NCBI GenBank assembly: GCA_017303575.1
Contig: JAFLCL010000016.1
Coordinates: 1-64,000 of the forward strand
Direction: 5' to 3'
Origin: Deltaproteobacteria bacterium
GTDB lineage: Bacteria; Myxococcota_A; Polyangia; Polyangiales; Sandaracinaceae
DNA length: 64,000 nt
In this document: positions 35,981-52,804 of the stretch, one piece after another
Layout: each line of letters begins with the position of its first letter
Position numbering within the stretch: position 1 is the first letter of the stretch
Made by a program: the position numbers and the translations under genes
The notes under the pieces: model-generated
Told to the model about the DNA's origin: nothing
Seen by the model: the letters and a program-made list of their open reading frames with translations, nothing else
The model's database searches: none

Positions 35981-37360
35981 TCACGGCGTCGCTTCCCGCA
36001 GCCGCGCGAGCTCGCGGCCGGTCATCGGGCCGCGGAGGTAGCTCATCGCCCAGCGTGGGTTGAGCAGCGTGAGCTGGTTGCCCTTCGCTTCGCGTACGAC
36101 GAACCACCTCGGGCCGAGCTTCTTGAGCACGCCCGCGAGCACGCTCTTCTTCTTGTCCTCGCCCAGGCCCTCGACGACGCGTGCGCGGTCCGCGTCCGTC
36201 TGCAGGCGTCCGAGCATCCACGTGCCAGCGTTGCTGAGCGCGCGGTAGTCGAGGTCCATCGGGTTCTGCGTCGCGATCACGCAGCCAACGCCGAACGCGC
36301 GCGCTTGCTTCATCAGCGCCACGATCGGCCGCTTCGTCGGTGGATTCGCGGGGTGCGGCGGCACGAAGCCGTACACCTCGTCGAACGCGACGAGCGCCTT
36401 GAGGCGCGAGCTCCCCGGCTGGCTCCGCACCCAGCTCAGCACCTCTTCGAGGACCACGCCGAGCACGAGCTGTTTCTCGGCGTCGTCGAGGTGCGCGACG
36501 CTCACGATCGTCGCGGGCGTTCTGCCATCCACCTTCTGCATCCAGGCTCCGACGTCGATCGACTGACCCCGACGCCACGACGCGAACGACGGTGACGCGA
36601 CCAGCGTGTTGAGGTCCGCCGCGAGCTCCGCGCGCAGCTTCGGCGACACGAACGCGTCGAGCTCGAGGTCACCGATCTGCACGATCGGTGGCTCGTTCAG
36701 ATCGGCCATCAGCTCACCGAGCGTCGAAGTGCCTCCCTTCGACAAGCGCCGCTCCGCGAGCACCGACAAGAGCGCATGCTCCCGACTGCGCCCCGGATCC
36801 GCGTCGCGTCCGGTGAGACGAAGCACGAGCGACACAGCGGCCGACAGCGCCGCGCGTGCGGCAGCGGGAGCCCCGTCCCAGCGCGTGCTCCGTTGTTCGA
36901 GCGCCGAGAGCAGGTGCAGCGGCTCACCCGCCTCCGAGCCCGGCGTGATCACGCGCACGTGCATGCCCTTCGCGTACGCCGCGAGCTTGGCTTCATCGAT
37001 GTTCCACGACGCGAGCCCCTTGCGCCGCGTCTCGACGGCGCTCGCCACCACGGGCGGATCGGCGATGCCATCGTCGTCGCCCGCATCGGCCTCGACCCAC
37101 GGCGCCATCGCGGAGGGATCGAAGGAGGGCAGGGCGAGCGCCAGATTGGCGAGGTCGCCTTTGACGTCGATGAGGAGACAGGGCACCTGCGCCGACAACA
37201 CCTCTTCGACGAGCACGGTGAGGAGGCCAGTCTTGCCACTGCCGGTCATGCCGACGATCACGCCGTGGGTGAGGAGATCGTGCGCGGGAATGCCATAGGC
37301 ACCCAGGTTCGTGCGGGAGTCGAGGGTGTAGCGAGCACCGAGGTTCAATGTGGGAGTCAT
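35981..37360 (-). CDS. HerA-like ATPase (DUF87-type)
   Basis: This 459-residue P-loop ATPase of the HerA/FtsK class has its Walker A at 'IVGMTGSGKTGLLT' (residues about 35-48). Walker B may be 'LLIDVKGD', and 'KALVAFDEVYGFVPP' is a second hydrophobic-acidic block with the catalytic Glu. 'GVGCVIATQNPMDLDY' is sensor-like. Such ATPases act as hexamers on DNA, often with a nuclease partner (NurA, SIR2 and others). No partner is adjacent here, and the protein is shorter than many relatives, so a C-terminal part may be lost. A GGTTCC array lies directly upstream. Confidence 0.85.
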   Translation of the reverse strand: MTPTLNLGARYTLDSRTNLGAYGIPAHDLLTHGVIVGMTGSGKTGLLTVLVEEVLSAQVPCLLIDVKGDLANLALALPSFDPSAMAPWVEADAGDDDGIADPPVVASAVETRRKGLASWNIDEAKLAAYAKGMHVRVITPGSEAGEPLHLLSALEQRSTRWDGAPAAARAALSAAVSLVLRLTGRDADPGRSREHALLSVLAERRLSKGGTSTLGELMADLNEPPIVQIGDLELDAFVSPKLRAELAADLNTLVASPSFASWRRGQSIDVGAWMQKVDGRTPATIVSVAHLDDAEKQLVLGVVLEEVLSWVRSQPGSSRLKALVAFDEVYGFVPPHPANPPTKRPIVALMKQARAFGVGCVIATQNPMDLDYRALSNAGTWMLGRLQTDADRARVVEGLGEDKKKSVLAGVLKKLGPRWFVVREAKGNQLTLLNPRWAMSYLRGPMTGRELARLREATP

Positions 37361-37414: not shown

Positions 37415-37730
37415 GGGATCTGGTTCCGGTTCCGGTTCCGGGATCCGGTTCCGGTTCCGGTTCCGGGATCCGGTTCCGGTTCCGGGATCCGGTTCCGGGT
37501 TCCGGTTCCGGTTCCGGGATCCGGTTCCGGGATCCGGTTCCGGGATCCGGTTCCGGGATCCGGTTCCGGTTCCGGGATCCGGTTCCGGTTCCGGATCCGG
37601 TTCCGGTTCCGGGATCCGGTTCCGGTTCCGGGATCCGGTTCCGGTTCCGGTTCCGGGATCCGGATCCGGATCCGGTTCCGGGATTCGGTTCCGGGATCCG
37701 GTTCCGGTTCCGCTTCCGGCTCTTGGTTCA
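37415..37730 (+). repeat. GGTTCC/GGATCC array 1
   Basis: About 315 bases consist of GGTTCC hexamers interrupted by the 7-base GGGATCC, with GGTTCC always on the plus strand. Because the 7-mer shifts the frame each time, all six frames stay open, giving meaningless peptides rich in Gly-Ser, Arg-Phe, Pro-Val, Glu-Pro and Gly-Thr. The array fills the space between the start of the HerA-like gene (37360) and the 3' end of the four-helix gene (37728). No gene or promoter was recognised in this interval. Confidence 0.95.
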
Positions 37731-38090
37731 GGCGCGCATTCGCCGCCAAGTCATGGCCGCGACCCGATCGAGCGCTGCGTCGATGTCGGTCGCGTCGGCC
37801 TCCGTGAGGTAGCCCCACGCCGCCGCGACCTGAATGCCTGCGCGCACTTCTCGCGCGCTGCCGAGAGCCGTGTGGAGTCTGGCGCGCCGATTGCCGCGGT
37901 CGCTTCCCTCCGCCTCCGCCAGATTCAACGCGACGCTGCTGGCAGCGCGTCGAATCTGGCGGGTCAGGTCTCGGTCGTGGCCCTCGATGACGCGGACGAT
38001 GGGTCTGAGTCGAGCAACGACCTGGAGCATCAGCGTGAGCGCCGAATTTTGGCGTTCGATGGTCACGTCAACTTCGTCGACCAGACTCAC
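37728..38090 (-). CDS. Four-helix-bundle protein (S23/23S-IVS family)
   Basis: This 120-residue protein starts at a GTG at 38090 that overlaps the TGA of the upstream gene (GTGA). The pattern 'DLTRQIRRAASSVALNLAEA' followed by 'ARLHTALGSAREVRAGIQVA' is the signature of the four-helix-bundle family that includes proteins encoded in 23S rRNA intervening sequences and the Avd proteins of diversity-generating retroelements. These pentameric bundles bind nucleic acids. No reverse transcriptase is nearby, so an Avd role is unlikely. The stop lies at the edge of GGTTCC array 1. Confidence 0.82.
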   Translation of the reverse strand: MSLVDEVDVTIERQNSALTLMLQVVARLRPIVRVIEGHDRDLTRQIRRAASSVALNLAEAEGSDRGNRRARLHTALGSAREVRAGIQVAAAWGYLTEADATDIDAALDRVAAMTWRRMRA

Positions 38091-39205: not shown

Positions 39206-39268
39206 ACACGCACGCACCCCGACGCCCTTACGCACGCCACGGATCGGGCTCCGAACCTCCCCCGATCG

Positions 39269-39520
39269 CTGTCGTCAGCGTCCGATCAGCGTCCGAACCT
39301 CGCCGATCGCTGTCGTCAGCGTCCGTTGAGCTTCCGAAGCTCCGCCGACGCTGTCGTCAGCGTGATCGCGAGGTTCCGAAGCTCCGACGGCGCTGTCGTC
39401 AGCGTGATCGGGAGGTTCCGAAGCTCCGAAGGCGCTGTCGTCAGCGTGATCGCGAGGTTCCGAAGCTCCGACGGGGCTGTCGTCAGCGGGGTGGGGAGGA
39501 TCGGAGGCTGGAACGGCGGT
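39269..39520 (+). repeat. 42-bp tandem repeat upstream of hsdM
   Basis: CTGTCGTCAGCG recurs at 39269, 39310, 39351, 39393, 39435 and 39477, so the period is 41, 41, 42, 42, 42 bases. From 39340 the whole unit is repeated, including GATCGCGAGGTTCCGAAGCTCCGA, with few changes. The two 41-base steps break any reading frame, so it is probably not a protein repeat, and there are no spacers, so it is not CRISPR. The 650-base interval 39083-39732 otherwise holds no recognisable gene. The array ends about 210 bases before hsdM and may hold regulator sites. Confidence 0.9.
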
Positions 39521-39732
39521 CGCGACAGCGATCGCGGAAGTTCCGATGCTGAAACTGCGGTCGAAAGACCCCGGGTGAGAGGTTGCGAAGCAGAACGCGT
39601 CACACGCGCGAGGGCGAATCAGCTCGAGTCGCCAGCGTCGACGTGCGCGGGCTTCGCCGAGACCACACGCGCACGCTCGGCCGCAAGGCTTGTAGGGGAT
39701 GTGGGTCTCCCGCTACGGTCGTCCGCCATTGC

Positions 39733-42195
39733 ATGCCGATCAAGAAGTCCGAGCTCTACACGTCCCTCTGGAAATCCTGCGACGAACTGCGCGGCGGCAT
39801 GGATGCCTCGCAGTACAAGGATTACGTCCTGGTCCTCTTGTTCGTGAAGTACGTCTCGGACAAGGCCGCCAGCCAGAAGAACTACCTGCTCGACGTCCCC
39901 GAGGGGGGCAGCTTCGCCGACATGGTCGCGCTCAAGGGCGACAAAGAGATCGGCGACAAGCTGAACAAGATCATCGCCAAGCTCGCCGACAAGAATGAGC
40001 TCAAGGGCGTGATCGACGTCGCCGACTGGAACGACGCCGACAAGCTGGGCAAGGGCAAGGACATGGTGGACCGGCTGTCGAACCTGGTCGCCATCTTCGA
40101 CAACCCGGCCCTCGACTTCCGGGGCAACCGCGCCGAGGGCGACGACCTGCTCGGCGACGCCTACGAGTACCTGATGCGCCACTTCGCCACCGAGAGTGGC
40201 AAGAGCAAGGGCCAGTTCTACACGCCGGCCGAGGTCTCGCGGATCATGGCCAAGGTCATCGGCGTTGGCAGCGCCAAGAGCGCGAGCCAGACCATCCACG
40301 ATCCCACCTGCGGCTCGGGCTCGCTCCTCCTCAAGGCGCACGACGAGGCCAAGGGCGCCACTGGCCTCGACCTCGCGCTCTACGGCCAGGAGATGGACAA
40401 TGCCACCAAGGCGCTGGCCCGCATGAATCTCATCCTGCACGACTGCCCCACCGGCGAGATCTGGCAGGACAACACGCTCTCCGCGCCGCACTTCAAGGAC
40501 GCCAAGAGCGGGGCGCTCAAGACATTCGACTTCGTCGTCGCCAACCCGCCGTTCTCCACCAAGGCGTGGACCAACGGCTTCGACCCCGCCAACGACCAGT
40601 ACGGCCGCTTCGCCTTCGGCGTCCCGCCTCAGAAGAACGGTGACTACGCCTTCCTGCTCCACATCCTCTCTTGCCTCAAGAGCACTGGCAAAGGTGCGGT
40701 GATTCTCCCCCACGGTGTGCTCTTCCGTGGTGGTGCCGAGGCCACCATCCGTCGCGAGGTCGTCAAGCGCGGCTACATCAAGGGCATCATCGGCCTGCCG
40801 GCGAACCTCTTCTACGGCACCGGCATCCCCGCCTGCATCCTGGTGCTCGACAAGGAAGGCGCCGCCGCCCGCAAGGGCATCTTCATGATCGACGCCTCCA
40901 AGGGCTTCATCAAGGATGGCAACAAGAACCGGCTGCGGGCGCAGGATATCCACAAGATCGTCGATGCGTTCACGCGCCTGCTCGAGCTCCCGCGCTACTC
41001 GCGCATGGTGCCGCTGGGGGAAATCAGCGACCCGAAGAACGACTTCAACCTGAACCTGCCGCGCTACATCGACTCAAGCGAACCCGAGGACATCCAGGAC
41101 ATCGACGGCCACCTGCGCGGCGGCATCCCCGACCGCGACCTCGACGCGCTGGAGCGGTACTGGAAGGTGTTCCCCGGCGTGCGCGAGGCGTTGTTCAAGA
41201 AGGCCGGACGCCCGGGCTACAGCGAGCTCAAGGTCGCCGCCACCGACATCAAGGCCACCATCTTCGGCCACGCCGAGTTCACCGCCTGGAGCACGCAGAC
41301 CAAGAAGCTGTTCGCCAAGTGGCGAGCCGAGGTCGCGCCCCGCCTGGCGGGCATCAAGAAGGGCGACAAGCCCAAGGTGCTCATCGAGTCGCTCGCCGAG
41401 GAGCTGCTGGCCACGTTCCAGACGGCGAAGCTGCTCGACGCTTACGACATCTACCAGCACCTGATGGACTACTGGGCCGACGCCATGCAGGACGACGTCT
41501 ACCTCATCGCCAGCGACGGCTGGCGCGAGGCCGCCAAGCCGAGACAGATGATCGAGGACAAGGACAAGAAGTCCAAGGACAAGCCCGACTTCATCCTCGG
41601 CAAGCAGAAGTTCAAGGTCGAGCTGATTCCACCCGCGCTGCTCATCGCTCGCCACTTCGCCGCCGAGCAGGCCGCCATCGAGAGGCTCGAGTCGGAAGCG
41701 GCGGCCGTCGCCCAGGAGATGGAGGAGTTGGCCGAGGCGCACGGTGGCGAAGACGGCCTCTTCGCAGAGGCCAAGAACGACAAGGACAAGCTCACCAAGG
41801 CCTCGGTGTCAGCGCGGCTCAAGGACATCAAGAACGACCGCGACGCCGCTTCCGAGCGCAAGGTATTGGGGGACTACCTGGCCCTCGTCGAGAAGGAGTC
41901 GGAGGTCAGCGCGAAGGTCAAGACCGCGCAGGAAGAGCTCACCGCGAAGGTCGCCGCCAAGTACGGGAAGCTGACCGAGGACGACATCAAGGCCCTGGTT
42001 GTCGAGGACAAGTGGCTGGCCACGCTCGAGGCGGCCGTGCAGGGGGAACTCGACCGAGTGTCGCAGACGCTGACTGGCCGCGTGCGTGAGCTTGCCGATC
42101 GCTACGCCACCCCGCTGCCGAAGCTGACCACTGAGCTGTCCCTCCTCGCCGCTAGAGTCGATGAGCATCTCAGAAGTATGGGGGCAGCGTGGTAG
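39733..42195 (+). CDS. hsdM: Type I restriction-modification methyltransferase (HsdM)
   Basis: This 820-residue N6-adenine methyltransferase subunit has an N-terminal HsdM_N helical domain (about 1-130). The SAM-binding 'DPTCGSGSLLLKAH' follows near residue 190, then the catalytic 'VVANPPFS' near residue 269. It is longer than the classic 500-residue HsdM: residues about 440-820 form a charged, coiled-coil-rich extension ('EQAAIERLESEAAAVAQEM'), typical of the large-HsdM class. It methylates host DNA together with HsdS and is needed for HsdR cleavage. The end overlaps hsdS by seven bases. Confidence 0.95.
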   Translation: MPIKKSELYTSLWKSCDELRGGMDASQYKDYVLVLLFVKYVSDKAASQKNYLLDVPEGGSFADMVALKGDKEIGDKLNKIIAKLADKNELKGVIDVADWNDADKLGKGKDMVDRLSNLVAIFDNPALDFRGNRAEGDDLLGDAYEYLMRHFATESGKSKGQFYTPAEVSRIMAKVIGVGSAKSASQTIHDPTCGSGSLLLKAHDEAKGATGLDLALYGQEMDNATKALARMNLILHDCPTGEIWQDNTLSAPHFKDAKSGALKTFDFVVANPPFSTKAWTNGFDPANDQYGRFAFGVPPQKNGDYAFLLHILSCLKSTGKGAVILPHGVLFRGGAEATIRREVVKRGYIKGIIGLPANLFYGTGIPACILVLDKEGAAARKGIFMIDASKGFIKDGNKNRLRAQDIHKIVDAFTRLLELPRYSRMVPLGEISDPKNDFNLNLPRYIDSSEPEDIQDIDGHLRGGIPDRDLDALERYWKVFPGVREALFKKAGRPGYSELKVAATDIKATIFGHAEFTAWSTQTKKLFAKWRAEVAPRLAGIKKGDKPKVLIESLAEELLATFQTAKLLDAYDIYQHLMDYWADAMQDDVYLIASDGWREAAKPRQMIEDKDKKSKDKPDFILGKQKFKVELIPPALLIARHFAAEQAAIERLESEAAAVAQEMEELAEAHGGEDGLFAEAKNDKDKLTKASVSARLKDIKNDRDAASERKVLGDYLALVEKESEVSAKVKTAQEELTAKVAAKYGKLTEDDIKALVVEDKWLATLEAAVQGELDRVSQTLTGRVRELADRYATPLPKLTTELSLLAARVDEHLRSMGAAW

Positions 42196-43442
42196 CCACA
42201 GCCGCGGCACTACACGAGTCGTGGGCATCCCCTAAAGGCTGGAAGCCAGTTTGCTTGGGGCAGATCTCGAGCCTCATCACGAGCGGGTCACGCGGCTGGG
42301 CAGCGCACTACGCTGACGTGGGCGCTCTGTTTGTGCGAAGCCAGAACGTGCGCGACGGGCGGCTAGATTTCAGCGACCGGCAATGCGTCGTCCCGCCAGC
42401 CGGGTCTGAAGGCACTCGGACACGTCTCGCTCCTGGCGACGTGTTGATTACGATCACCGGCAATAGCGTCGGCAATGTCGCCTGGGTGGACCAAGATTAT
42501 GGCGACGCCTACATAAGCCAGCACGTTGGACTCGTAAGGCTGACCGACCCGACGCTTGCGCCCTTTGTTTGCCGGTACCTCGCGCCAGGGGCACCAGGAA
42601 ATCCGCAAATTGCTGCGAGTCAGTCCGGACAGAGCAAGCCGGGTTTGAACTTGGGGAACCTTGCGGAGTTCCTGGTCAACTTCCCGCCTCCAGTCGAAGC
42701 CAAGGCCATCGCAACAACGCTGAGCGATGTGGATGCGCTGCTCGGTGCGCTGGACCGACTCATCGCCAAGAAGCGCGACCTCAAGCAAGCCGCCATGCAG
42801 CAGCTCCTCACCGGCCAGACCCGCCTGCCGGGGTTCAGTGGCAAGTGGGAGGAGCGGCGTGTTTGCGACATGGGCGAGGTGCTGGCAGGCAAGGCCCTCG
42901 ACGTGCATGGAGCCGGACGTCACCGGCCGTACCTGCGAACCAAGAACGTCCTCGACGGGCGCATCGACATCGACGATGTCCTGGAGATGCCGATGACCGA
43001 TGCGGAGTTCGAGCGGTTCCGCGTCAAGCACGGCGACGTACTCCTCAATGAGGGTCAGTCGGTGGAGCTGGTCGGACGGTGCTCTCTCTACCGCGACGAA
43101 CTCCCGGTCCCGTGCGCGATGCAGAACCAGCTACTCCGCTTTCGCGCCAAGCCGACGACCGCGTCGTCGTTCGCTGAGCAGGTATTTCGATGCTGTCAGC
43201 ACGACGGCACGTTCGCTTCGATCGCGACCCAGACAACCTCGGTAGCGCACCTCGGCAGTGTCCGATTTGCCAACCTTCGACTGCGTTGGCCCCTTGAACT
43301 CAAGGAGCAGGAAGCTGTTGGAGGCGTCCTTGCCGACATGGACGCCGAACTCCTTGCCCTCGAACAACGCCGCGACAAGACGCACCTGCTCAAGCAGGGG
43401 ATGATGCAGGAGCTGCTCACCGGAAGGACGCGCCTCGTATGA
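42189..43442 (+). CDS. hsdS: Type I restriction-modification specificity subunit (HsdS)
   Basis: This 417-residue protein starts at a GTG at 42189 inside the end of hsdM. There are two target-recognition domains: about 15-180 and 220-385. Each is followed by a conserved helix-linker, 'KKRDLKQAAMQQLLTGQTRL' and 'HLLKQGMMQELLTGRTRLV'. The pair sets the bipartite target sequence, which cannot be predicted by eye. The first domain (about 42240-42720) uses many A/T-ending codons, unlike hsdM and hsdR, as expected if recognition domains are swapped between strains. The stop overlaps the hsdR start (ATGA). Confidence 0.93.
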   Translation: MVATAAALHESWASPKGWKPVCLGQISSLITSGSRGWAAHYADVGALFVRSQNVRDGRLDFSDRQCVVPPAGSEGTRTRLAPGDVLITITGNSVGNVAWVDQDYGDAYISQHVGLVRLTDPTLAPFVCRYLAPGAPGNPQIAASQSGQSKPGLNLGNLAEFLVNFPPPVEAKAIATTLSDVDALLGALDRLIAKKRDLKQAAMQQLLTGQTRLPGFSGKWEERRVCDMGEVLAGKALDVHGAGRHRPYLRTKNVLDGRIDIDDVLEMPMTDAEFERFRVKHGDVLLNEGQSVELVGRCSLYRDELPVPCAMQNQLLRFRAKPTTASSFAEQVFRCCQHDGTFASIATQTTSVAHLGSVRFANLRLRWPLELKEQEAVGGVLADMDAELLALEQRRDKTHLLKQGMMQELLTGRTRLV

Positions 43443-46400
43443 GCACCATCGGCGAAGCGGAGAAGCGGACCCAGCGGCGCGTCGCCCGGCTGTTCGTCGA
43501 TGATCTCGGCTACGAGCACCTCGGCAACCTGAGCGAAGGCGACAACCGTAACATCATCGAGGGCCAGCTCGAGCACTTCCTGTGGGCCTATCAGGGCTTC
43601 GCCGAGCGCGAGGACGGCGACACCGTCATGCGCCGCGCCATCGCCGAGGTCGTCAAGGTCGCGGGCAATACCAGCCTCAGCCTCTACGACCGCAACCGCG
43701 CCGTCTACGAGCTCCTGCGCTACGGCGTGAAGGTCAAGGTCGACGTCGGGGCGCAAACCGAGACCGTCTGGCTGATCGACTGGAAGACGCCGGAGAAGAA
43801 CCGCTTCGCCATCGCCGAGGAGGTCACGGTCAAGCCGGCCGACCCGAAGGCCCACGGCAAGCGCCCCGACATCGTCCTGTACGTCAACGGCATCGCGCTC
43901 GGGGTCCTCGAGCTCAAGCGTTCGACCGTGTCGGTGGCCGAGGGCATCCGCCAGAACCTCGACAACCAGAAGAAGGAGTTCATCCAGCCCTTCTTCTCGA
44001 CCATGCAGTACGTCATGGCCGGCAACGACACCGAAGGTCTGCGCTACGGCACCATCCAGACCCCCGAGAAGTACTACCTCACCTGGAAGGAAGACGGCCC
44101 CGGCGACAACCCGCTCGACAACGGCCTCCGCCAGCTCTGCGGCACGGCCCGGTTCCTCGAGCTCATCCACGACTTCATCGTCTTCGACGCCGGCATCAAG
44201 AAGCTCTGCCGCCACAACCAGTACTTCGGCGTTCGCGCTGCGCAGGAGCACGTCCGCCGCCGAGAGGGCGGCATCCTGTGGCACACGCAGGGCAGCGGCA
44301 AGAGCCTCACCATGGTGTGGCTGGCCAAGTGGATCCGCGAGAACGTGAAGGACTCCCGCGTCCTCATCATCACCGATCGCACCGAGCTCGACGAGCAGAT
44401 CGAAAAGGTCTTCAAGGGTGTCGCTGAGGACATCCACCGCACCAAGTCGGGCGCCGACCTCATCGCCGCGCTGAACGCGACCAAGCCGTGGCTCCTCTGC
44501 TCGCTCATCCACAAGTTCGGCGGCAAGGAGGATGGTGAGCAGGTCGGCGACATCAAGGGCTTCGTCGAGGAGCTCAAGAAGTCGCTGCCCAAGGACTTCC
44601 GTCCCAAGGGGGATCTCTTCGTCTTCGTGGACGAGTGCCACCGCACTCAGTCCGGCGACCTGCACGAGGCCATGAAGGCCATCATGCCGGGCGCGGTCTT
44701 CATCGGCTTCACCGGCACGCCGCTGCTCAAGGCCGACAAGAAGAAGAGCATCGAGATCTTCGGCCGCTACATCCACACCTACAAGTTCGACGAGGCCGTG
44801 AAGGACGGCGTGGTGCTCGACCTCCGTTACGAGGCTCGCGACATCGACCAGAGCATCACCTCGCAGACGAAGACCGATCAGTGGTTCGAGGCGAAGACCA
44901 AGGGCCTCACGCCGCTGGCGAAGGCCCAGCTCAAGGCGCGCTGGGGCACGATGCAGAAAGTGCTCTCCAGCCAGTCTCGCCTGCAGAAGATCGCGGCCGA
45001 TCTCCTCCTCGACATGGAGACCCGCGACCGCCTGAAGAGCGGGCGAGGCAACGCGATGCTGGTGGCGGGGAGTATCTACGAGGCGTGCAAGTTCTACGAG
45101 CTCCTCGCCAAGACCCTTCTCGGCGGCAAGTGCGCGATCGTCACGTCGTACACGCCGCGGGCGGCGGACATCAAGGGCCAGGAGAGCGGCGAGGGCGCCA
45201 CCGACGCGCTGGAGAAGTACGGCACCTACCGGCAGATGCTGGCCGACTGGTTCAACGAGCCACCCGAGCAAGCGGTGACCAAGGTCGAAGCCTTCGAGAA
45301 GGCGGTGAAGAAGAAGTTCATCGACGAACCCGGGCAGATGAAGCTCTTGATCGTCGTCGACAAGCTGCTCACCGGGTTCGATGCGCCGCCGGCCACGTAC
45401 CTCTACATCGACAAGCAGATGCGGGATCACGGCCTCTTCCAGGCGATCTGCCGCGTCAACCGTCTCGACGGGGACGACAAGGAGTTCGGCTACATCGTCG
45501 ACTACAAGGACCTCTTCAAGAGCCTGGAGGGAGCCGTCGAGGACTACACGTCCGGGGCGCTCGATGGCTACGACAAGGAGGATGTCGCGGGCCTTCTCAA
45601 GGACCGGCTCAAGAAGGCCCGGGAGCAGCTCGAAGACGCGCTCGAGGCGGTACGTGCCCTCTGTGAGCCCGTCGCGCCGCCAAGGGATGACCAAGCGTTC
45701 TACGCGTACTTCTCGTCTGCCGAACACGGGAACGGTGCGCAGCTCAAGGCCAACGAGCCCCAGCGCCTCGCTCTCTACAAGCTCACGTCGTCCCTCGTGC
45801 GGGCGTACGCGAATCTCGCGAGCGAGATGACGGAGGCCGGGTACACGGCCGCGGAGGCCGAGCAGATCAAGAAGGACGTCACCTTCTACGAGAACCTTCG
45901 TGCCCAGGTGAAGCTGCACAGCGGTGACGCGATCGATCTGAAGCAGTACGAGCCGGCGATGCGGCACCTCATCGACACGTACATCCGTGCCGAGGAGAGC
46001 GAGAAGGTCTCCGAGTTCGATGACCTCTCGTTGGTCCAGCTCATCGTCGAGCGCGGTGCTGCAGCTGTGAAGGCGTTGCCCGAGGCGATTCGCAAGAAGG
46101 AGACGGCGACGGCGGAGACCATCGAGAACAACGTCCGCAAGCTCATCATCGACGAGTCGCCCATCAACCCGAAGTACTACGAGAAGATGTCGGAGCTCCT
46201 CGACTCGTTGATCGAGCAGCGACGACAAGCGGCGATCACTTATCAGGAGTACCTCGCGAAGATCGTGGAACTGACGAGGAAGGCAAAGAGCGGTCCGAAC
46301 GCGGGCGCCTACCCGCCGTCGCTCGACAGCACCGCCCGGCGGGCGCTGTACGACAACCTCGATCGTGACGAGGCGCTGGCGCTCAAGGTCGACCAAGCCG

Positions 46401-46543
46401 TGCGGGCGAGCCTGCAGGACAGCTGGCGCGGGAACGCGCTCAAGACCAAGCGCGTGCGCCAGGCGATCGCCGCGCTCCTCGACGGGGACGACGCCCGCAC
46501 CGATCGAACGCTCGAGCTCGTGAAGAAGCAAAATGATTACTGA
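43439..46543 (+). CDS. hsdR: Type I restriction endonuclease/translocase subunit (HsdR)
   Basis: This is a 1034-residue motor and nuclease. The N-terminal PD-(D/E)xK site is intact: Asp144 in 'RPDIVLYVNG' and Glu158-x-Lys160 in 'VLELKRS'. The SF2 helicase motifs follow: Walker A 'TQGSGKSLTMVW' near residue 283, DEAD-type 'FVDECHRTQSG' near 400 and 'GFTGTPLL' near 421. The C-terminal helical region binds the methylase core. It translocates DNA and cuts away from unmethylated targets. All key residues are present, so the system looks functional. Its end overlaps the metallopeptidase gene by 11 bases. Confidence 0.95.
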   Translation: MSTIGEAEKRTQRRVARLFVDDLGYEHLGNLSEGDNRNIIEGQLEHFLWAYQGFAEREDGDTVMRRAIAEVVKVAGNTSLSLYDRNRAVYELLRYGVKVKVDVGAQTETVWLIDWKTPEKNRFAIAEEVTVKPADPKAHGKRPDIVLYVNGIALGVLELKRSTVSVAEGIRQNLDNQKKEFIQPFFSTMQYVMAGNDTEGLRYGTIQTPEKYYLTWKEDGPGDNPLDNGLRQLCGTARFLELIHDFIVFDAGIKKLCRHNQYFGVRAAQEHVRRREGGILWHTQGSGKSLTMVWLAKWIRENVKDSRVLIITDRTELDEQIEKVFKGVAEDIHRTKSGADLIAALNATKPWLLCSLIHKFGGKEDGEQVGDIKGFVEELKKSLPKDFRPKGDLFVFVDECHRTQSGDLHEAMKAIMPGAVFIGFTGTPLLKADKKKSIEIFGRYIHTYKFDEAVKDGVVLDLRYEARDIDQSITSQTKTDQWFEAKTKGLTPLAKAQLKARWGTMQKVLSSQSRLQKIAADLLLDMETRDRLKSGRGNAMLVAGSIYEACKFYELLAKTLLGGKCAIVTSYTPRAADIKGQESGEGATDALEKYGTYRQMLADWFNEPPEQAVTKVEAFEKAVKKKFIDEPGQMKLLIVVDKLLTGFDAPPATYLYIDKQMRDHGLFQAICRVNRLDGDDKEFGYIVDYKDLFKSLEGAVEDYTSGALDGYDKEDVAGLLKDRLKKAREQLEDALEAVRALCEPVAPPRDDQAFYAYFSSAEHGNGAQLKANEPQRLALYKLTSSLVRAYANLASEMTEAGYTAAEAEQIKKDVTFYENLRAQVKLHSGDAIDLKQYEPAMRHLIDTYIRAEESEKVSEFDDLSLVQLIVERGAAAVKALPEAIRKKETATAETIENNVRKLIIDESPINPKYYEKMSELLDSLIEQRRQAAITYQEYLAKIVELTRKAKSGPNAGAYPPSLDSTARRALYDNLDRDEALALKVDQAVRASLQDSWRGNALKTKRVRQAIAALLDGDDARTDRTLELVKKQNDY

Positions 46544-49794: not shown

Positions 49795-51060
49795 TCAGGT
49801 GCCGCAGCCGCGCTCGCCGGTCGTCTCGACGCAGGCGCACGAGCCGCAGGCGCCGCGGGTGCGCCACGTGCCGTCGCAGCACTGGTAGCTCTGCGAGCAC
49901 GCGGTGTCGGCGTAGCGGCCGCCGTACGTGTGACGGCAGGAGTCGCCCGACGGAGTCGACGGCGCGGGCGCGGGCGAAGGCGAGGGCGCCGGCGTGCTGC
50001 CGCCGAGCGAGCTCGAGCGGGCGATCGAGATGATGTCGCCGATGCGCGGGCGGAGGTTGTCGCCGGGGCAGGTCGTCGACTGGCCGGGGTGATCGCGGTG
50101 ACCACGCACGTTGCTGCTCGAGACGCTGATGCCGTAGAGACGCGAGAGCGTGCCGATGAGGCGGCCGGCGGCGTCGATCATCGCGCGGGGCGGCGTGGAA
50201 GGGCCGAGGCCAGCGCAGCCGCTCGTGTGGAAGCAGCCCACGAACGAGACGCCGATGTTGCCCGTGTTGTTGTTCGCGACGTGCGCGCCGAGCAGGTGGA
50301 GCGGACGGCCCTCGTAGATCGTGCCGTCGATGCCGATGAGGAAGTGGTAGCCGACGTCGCACCAGCCGCGCGAGTCCATGTGGTAGGTCTGGATGCCGCG
50401 GACCTGACGGCGCGGATCGGTCGAGCCCGAGACCGTGTGGTGGATCGCGAAGCGGACGCGGCTCGAGTCGCGGCTGGTGCAGCGCGTCGCGCGTGCGCCC
50501 CACGACTCGCGGCTCGTGATGCCGATGCCGCTGAGCTCGCTGCGGAGCGCCTCGCGCGTGGTGCCGAGGTCCTCACCCGACTCCTCGTGCACCTCGGGGA
50601 TGGACGCGTTCCAGCGGAGCGTGCGGATACGCGAGGTCTCGATCGCACGGATGCGGAGGCGCGCGCCATCACCCGCGGTGAGGTTCGCGATGCCGACCTG
50701 CGTGTCCTCCTCGCCCCAGCTCGAGGTCACCGCCGTCCACTCGCCCTCGAGGGTGCCGTCCAGGCTCTGGGCATCGAACGCCGGGAGCACGCCGGCCTCG
50801 TTCAGCTCCACGAGCACGCCGACGCGGGTCACGCCATCGGGCGCGTCGAGGCGGGGCGAGACCAGCCAGTCGCCGTCCGGTGTCCAATCGTTGAACATCT
50901 CGGCGCCGAACATCTGGACCTCGGCGACCTCGTCACCGTGGGTGGGCGCCTCGGCCTCGCCGAAGCGGTTCACGCAGCCGGAGCACGCGGCCGCGCAGAG
51001 AAGAAGGAGCGCCGCGGTGCGGAGCATCGAGCGGGCGGGGAGGGTGGAGAGCGTCGTCAT
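49795..51060 (-). CDS. PGRP-type N-acetylmuramoyl-L-alanine amidase, lipoprotein
   Basis: This 421-residue protein starts at an ATG at 51060. The signal has a lipobox-like 'AACSGC' (Cys26 or Cys29). Residues about 35-185 are a beta-rich domain. The amidase_2/PGRP domain follows: 'ITSRESWGARATRC', zinc-ligand His in 'RFAIHHTVSGS' and 'VRGHRDHPGQSTTCPGD' (His and Cys ligands). A Ser/Pro/Ala linker leads to a 45-residue Cys-rich tail (about eight cysteines). It cleaves the amide between muramic acid and the peptide, in its own wall or that of prey. The tail may bind the cell surface. Confidence 0.9.
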   Translation of the reverse strand: MTTLSTLPARSMLRTAALLLLCAAACSGCVNRFGEAEAPTHGDEVAEVQMFGAEMFNDWTPDGDWLVSPRLDAPDGVTRVGVLVELNEAGVLPAFDAQSLDGTLEGEWTAVTSSWGEEDTQVGIANLTAGDGARLRIRAIETSRIRTLRWNASIPEVHEESGEDLGTTREALRSELSGIGITSRESWGARATRCTSRDSSRVRFAIHHTVSGSTDPRRQVRGIQTYHMDSRGWCDVGYHFLIGIDGTIYEGRPLHLLGAHVANNNTGNIGVSFVGCFHTSGCAGLGPSTPPRAMIDAAGRLIGTLSRLYGISVSSSNVRGHRDHPGQSTTCPGDNLRPRIGDIISIARSSSLGGSTPAPSPSPAPAPSTPSGDSCRHTYGGRYADTACSQSYQCCDGTWRTRGACGSCACVETTGERGCGT

Positions 51061-51165: not shown

Positions 51166-52618
<1,453 letters not shown>

Positions 52619-52623
52619 GGGAC

Positions 52624-52804
52624 GGGTCCGCATCCGGGTTTCGGATCCGGTTCCGGGATCCGGTTCCGGCATCCGGTTCCGGTTCCGGTTCCGGGATCCG
52701 GTTCCGGTTCCGGTTCCGGTTCCGGGATCCGGTTCCGGTTCCGGGATCCGGTTCCGGTTCCGGTTCCGGTTCCGGTTCCGGGATCCGGTTCCGGTTCCGG
52801 TTCC
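52624..52804 (+). repeat. GGTTCC/GGATCC array 3
   Basis: About 180 bases, the shortest array, between two plus-strand barrel genes. GGTTCC is on the plus strand as in arrays 1 and 2. The first units are degenerate (GGGTTTCGGATCC, GGCATCC) and the last are clean, which hints at growth from one side. Confidence 0.95.

Follow-up and report, generated by a model that had tools for sequence, protein, structure and literature searches.

Three intergenic GGTTCC/GGGATCC arrays in a Sandaracinaceae genome as probable slippage-grown microsatellites

Main finding

The draft genome of a member of the Sandaracinaceae (G000; 9.39 Mb, 540 contigs, 93.7% complete) carries three non-coding arrays with a GGNTCC-type motif, all within 15.4 kb of a single contig (C68), which is the 64,000-nucleotide stretch analysed here and called the window below. 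We think it likely that they are hairpin-prone hexa/heptanucleotide microsatellites which would have expanded by slippage and which may be largely neutral. As slippage-grown microsatellites, which is the best reading, they would belong to a general kind already known (PMC4692102, PMC4679880).

Structure and gene neighbourhood of the arrays

The arrays and the features around them are as follows.

35981-37360, - strand: HerA-like ATPase gene (459 aa), downstream of array 1
37416-37719, T-strand on +: array 1 (26 GGTTCC, 12 GGGATCC, 3 GGATCC, 1 GGGTTCC, edge variants)
37728-38090, - strand: gene for a 23S_rRNA_IVP (PF05635) protein
39583-46543, + strand: type I restriction-modification system (HsdM 39583-42195, HsdS 42189-43442, HsdR 43439-46543)
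49795-51060, - strand: N-acetylmuramoyl-L-alanine amidase (Amidase_2) lipoprotein gene, left neighbour of array 2
51166-51527, T-strand on +: array 2 (32 GGTTCC, 7 GGGATCC, 5 GGGGTCC, 4 GGATCC, 2 GGGTCC, variants)
51533-51560, + strand: candidate sigma-70-like promoter of the ferredoxin gene (sequence motif TTGACG-N16-CATACT)
51571-51876, + strand: ferredoxin gene (101 aa), 88% identical in G002
51884-52618, + strand: outer-membrane-like protein gene, left neighbour of array 3
52637-52804, T-strand on +: array 3 (18 GGTTCC, 5 GGGATCC), with a degenerate left edge at 52624-52664

Units were counted after tokenising the arrays at CC|GG, and these counts, together with the window sequence itself, bear out the initial annotation as to where the arrays lie and that they are made of GGTTCC, GGATCC and GGGATCC. 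The arrays measure ~170-360 bases and hold 26-56 units each; the longest exact repeat among them is 67 bases. The window contains 44 copies of GGTTCCGGTTCC, every one within the three arrays, and none of GGAACCGGAACC. Head-to-tail copying of a short unit is present in all of them, which places them among simple sequence repeats (unit of 1-9 bases), and TRF gave periods of 6, 13, 19 and 25. Heptamers stood next to each other once, against 6.9 times expected in shuffles (P = 0.002). The three arrays are non-random. That a 7-mer among 6-mers shifts the reading frame, as had been proposed, is correct; so is the claim that none of the six frames has a stop within the units, although this is trivial, because the units lack TAA, TAG, TGA, TTA, CTA and TCA and selection is not required. 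One array had further been called degenerate at its left end: the left degeneracy is real but not unique, all three having degenerate units at their edges, most markedly on the left side in arrays 2 and 3.

Array 1 occupies the gap between the 23S_rRNA_IVP-family gene and the HerA-like ATPase gene, both on the - strand; its right edge meets the stop codon of the former, and the start codon beside it belongs to the ATPase (37360, -), whose named relatives come from Sandaracinus and other Myxococcota MAGs. Array 2 lies in the divergent gap between the amidase gene (-) and the ferredoxin gene (+), beside the ferredoxin start codon at 51571, and array 3 between two + strand genes, ~6 bases past the stop codon of the outer-membrane-like gene and ~80 bases before the next start, again of an outer-membrane-like protein (~52887, +). 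The intergenic location claimed earlier thus holds for all three, since the gene models on either side stop short of the arrays or begin beyond them, and on the same ground we rejected protein coding, as a linker or otherwise, across them; the coding-like frame through array 1 is merely an upstream extension of the ATPase gene. No structured RNA in Rfam matched the arrays at gathering score. Searches for a viral, plasmid or phage origin returned no matches, BLAST low-complexity filtering weakening two of them. A mobile element or MITE was also rejected: the flanks of the three loci share no match longer than 11 bases, so that no element carried the arrays. Elsewhere in the window, at 39250-39550 and just 5' of the gene for the type I methyltransferase, stands another intergenic tandem array (~42 bases x 5.7) with the internal dyad CGCTGTCGTCAGCG and with stops in four of its six frames.

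Two of the arrays had been described as upstream of start codons, which is true of those two but falls short as a count, since all three are 5' of one. This placement just 5' of genes counts against the slippage reading, as function would predict it too. The arrays could then be cis-regulatory tracts, in which a protein or a nucleic-acid structure adjusts expression of the downstream genes according to copy number. Such a role would suit the position of array 2, which stops 5 bases short of the -35 box of the predicted ferredoxin promoter, and the heptamer arrays of Xanthomonas and Nostoc, which lie near stop or start codons and are mostly transcribed (PMC4692102). The downstream genes, however, are unrelated; the T-strand is sense to two of them and antisense to the third; the related genome G002 does without array 2 and yet retains the ferredoxin gene and a promoter-like motif; and conservation of array position was not found in the relatives compared. 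A closely similar promoter motif precedes the ferredoxin gene in G007 and G008. Regulation is, on this evidence, an unlikely explanation, and slippage growth stays the preferred one.

Distribution and an empty orthologous site

An exact 25-mer of the arrays has 14 copies in the G000 draft, all on C68, none in nine other genomes of the family, and none in the genome_contigs collection of 84,980 species, which may leave out G000 itself. The 25-mer gave no sign of further arrays hidden at contig ends, though some may have been lost in assembly. A relaxed 6-7-6-6 pattern was found in four of 290 genomes of the class, with 22 matches in G000 and one in each of the three others. As judged from these searches, the three non-coding arrays are lineage-specific and their unit set appears private to the species.

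A contig of G002, a genome of the same genus, is syntenic with the window at roughly 70-92% DNA identity along the contig. Its amidase-ferredoxin gap consists of ~120 bases of ordinary sequence, versus ~445 bases in the window, and array 2 is absent. Array 2 was therefore gained in this lineage or lost in that of G002, and the unique distribution of the arrays favours a gain. The G002 gap that matches the position of array 3 is filled by different sequence, ~3.2 kb long, and array 1 falls within a ~28 kb stretch (21.6-49.8 kb), including HsdM, HsdS and HsdR, which is largely missing from the G002 contig. The same G002 contig (C595) has an array of its own with unrelated units at ~92.6-93.3 kb (L070; 154 bases x 4.4), and a further unrelated one at ~118.2-118.4 kb (L071; 44 bases x 4.2), at the junction where the window has the extra 28 kb.

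This ~28 kb stretch raises the question of whether the arrays are linked to replication or recombination, either with fork direction setting their orientation and position or with the arrays having promoted acquisition of the restriction-modification segment. The shared strand orientation noticed in the initial annotation is confirmed, with the T-strand on + in all three; array 1 sits inside the stretch and array 2 only ~1.4 kb outside it, and the restriction-modification core is lower in GC (~64% against ~70%). Against this, three arrays are co-oriented by chance with P = 0.25, none of the arrays lies at either end of the segment (near 21.6 and 49.8 kb), and heptamer orientation is mixed on contig C261 of G004, where GGCCTCC and GGAGGCC occur on one and the same strand, so that orientation follows no fixed rule in that genome. 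In the closed genomes of two relatives, G007 and G008, replication runs in the same direction as the ferredoxin gene, which lies 2.7-3.0 Mb from dnaA (the origin being assumed to lie near dnaA); by a weak inference, and provided that gene order is shared with these two, the leading strand would be the T-strand (+). Local GC skew of the window is too weak to indicate the replication strand. Altogether we hold a link to replication or recombination to be quite improbable.

Least probable is that the arrays are an artefact of assembly. The genome is indeed a short-read draft in 540 contigs, and assemblers fail at repeats, but the flanks are unique, unit order differs among the three arrays and the flanking genes are syntenic. 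The 67-base longest exact repeat is within ordinary read lengths, although exact array length may still be wrong.

Folding and growth of the arrays

What would favour growth by slippage is the self-complementarity of the units: GGATCC is a perfect palindrome, and GGTTCC pairs with itself apart from the central bases. Array segments were predicted to fold better than dinucleotide shuffles on both strands (z -4.2 to -5.1), with predicted energies of -16.9 kcal/mol for (GGTTCC)10 and -18.3 for (GGAACC)10, next to -19.8 for a (CTG)20 control. Microsatellites of the CTG/CAG type are trinucleotide repeats known mainly from eukaryotic disease loci; the arrays resemble them in mismatched self-folding and, at equal length, in predicted stability. 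Of the other roles suggested in the initial annotation, protein-binding tract and recombination substrate, this hairpin potential is the one feature that bears on either.

We propose that a slipped nascent strand would fold back, the GG-NN-CC unit being nearly self-complementary, and would be retained, with copy number rising as a result. Base changes and insertions of single G residues in the units would then yield GGATCC and GGGATCC, and later slippage would duplicate blocks in which a single heptamer is joined to between one and three hexamers (13, 19 or 25 bases); since heptamers are rarely adjacent, growth by such compound blocks is probable. Mismatch repair copes well with loops of 1-3 bases but poorly with longer ones (PMC4060949). 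Growth would be tolerated where it is harmless. Between genes it could run up to the edges of promoters or stop codons; inside genes, since no frame of the units contains a stop, arrays could persist as linkers read in frame as Pro-X or Gly-Ser. Independent slippage alone does not explain the vocabulary shared by three arrays in 15 kb, and one array likely seeded another locally. Recent copying between arrays was tried as an explanation and rejected: the longest runs in common, of 9-10 units, stand out only weakly from simple shuffles (45-183 of 1000), and under a Markov null, where 114-388 of 1000 simulations reach them, they are not significant.

Outside C68, the GGNTCC arrays of G000 lie mostly inside genes, where they encode in-frame Pro-X or Gly-X (Gly-Ser) linkers (contigs C113, C136, C229, C269, C348, C479 and C518); those on C269 and C479 stay open despite their 7-mers because all frames are stop-free. 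One gene with such a linker, present in both G000 and G002, encodes a protein which we take to be AgmX/TonB-like. Its GGNTCC-type DNA is read in the Pro-Val frame in G000 (C136, L016) and in the Gly-Ser frame in G002 (L082), the pair being taken as orthologous on visual inspection of a C-terminal stretch with strong similarity. This suggests that it is the DNA repeat, rather than one peptide, which grows in the linker. The gene on C269 with a frame-rotating GGNTCC array (L018) also has 8 copies of a 15-base repeat encoding ASMPV.

Comparison with known repeats

Long repeats with units of 6-7 bases occur in large high-GC bacterial genomes and have been little studied. The STRR heptanucleotide repeats of heterocystous cyanobacteria are tandem intergenic heptamers of unknown function. 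The present arrays share with them this tandem intergenic arrangement of heptamers and differ in sequence and taxon, so far as STRR repeats are cited in PMC4692102. The GGGNATC heptamer repeats of Xanthomonas and Nostoc are dispersed genome-wide in 2-26 units, with four units preferred, and form G-quadruplexes (PMC4692102). Ours resemble them in having a short G-containing tandem unit, in being mostly intergenic and in lying near stop or start codons; they differ in being three long arrays (26-56 units) which mix 6- and 7-mers, have G tracts of mostly two bases and are predicted to form hairpins. Nor does every unit contain a G3 tract, the main unit GGTTCC having a G2 tract, and instead of genome-wide intergenic dispersal we found non-coding arrays of this motif on C68 only. 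Marine Beggiatoaceae carry TAACTGA direct repeats in 169 sets, each with a single unit in 2-6 copies and most of them placed immediately ahead of a start codon (PMC4679880). These too are intergenic tandem heptamers upstream of unrelated genes with a patchy distribution, whereas the arrays described here are few, long and variable.

A parallel in another genus, and implications

A generic 7-6-6-6-6 pattern, absent from most of 155 genomes of the order, matched 22 times in G000 (0 for the reversed control) and 32 times in G004, from a second genus of Sandaracinaceae (4 for the reversed control). On contig C45 of G004, GGCCCC/GGCCTCC arrays at L189 807-936 (4 heptamers) and 1925-2074 (12 heptamers) show no coding-like frame, and no gene model of coding composition covers them; other 6/7-mer arrays of G004 are coding. 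Non-coding GGCCCC/GGCCTCC and GGAGCC/GGGGCC arrays are clustered there within 1.4 kb (L189 750-2140).

The arrays of G000 are unusual in their 6/7 compound structure, in the private vocabulary found in three nearby gaps and in having coding counterparts in shifted frames. They matter chiefly because they add a new case, private to one species, to a class of bacterial repeats that has been little studied, and most likely no dedicated system produced them. The empty orthologous site, the coding counterparts in other frames and the parallel in another genus together offer a place to measure array birth, promoter effects and linker creation. Rather tentatively, it is also conceivable that the Sandaracinaceae have a lineage-specific tendency to grow arrays of GG-N2/3-CC 6/7-mers, with units specific to each species, both between and inside genes, where stop-free units would let orthologous linkers switch frame while the repeat persists. 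If this is true, the family would have in such arrays a source both of new protein segments of low complexity and of spacers that expand close to promoters.
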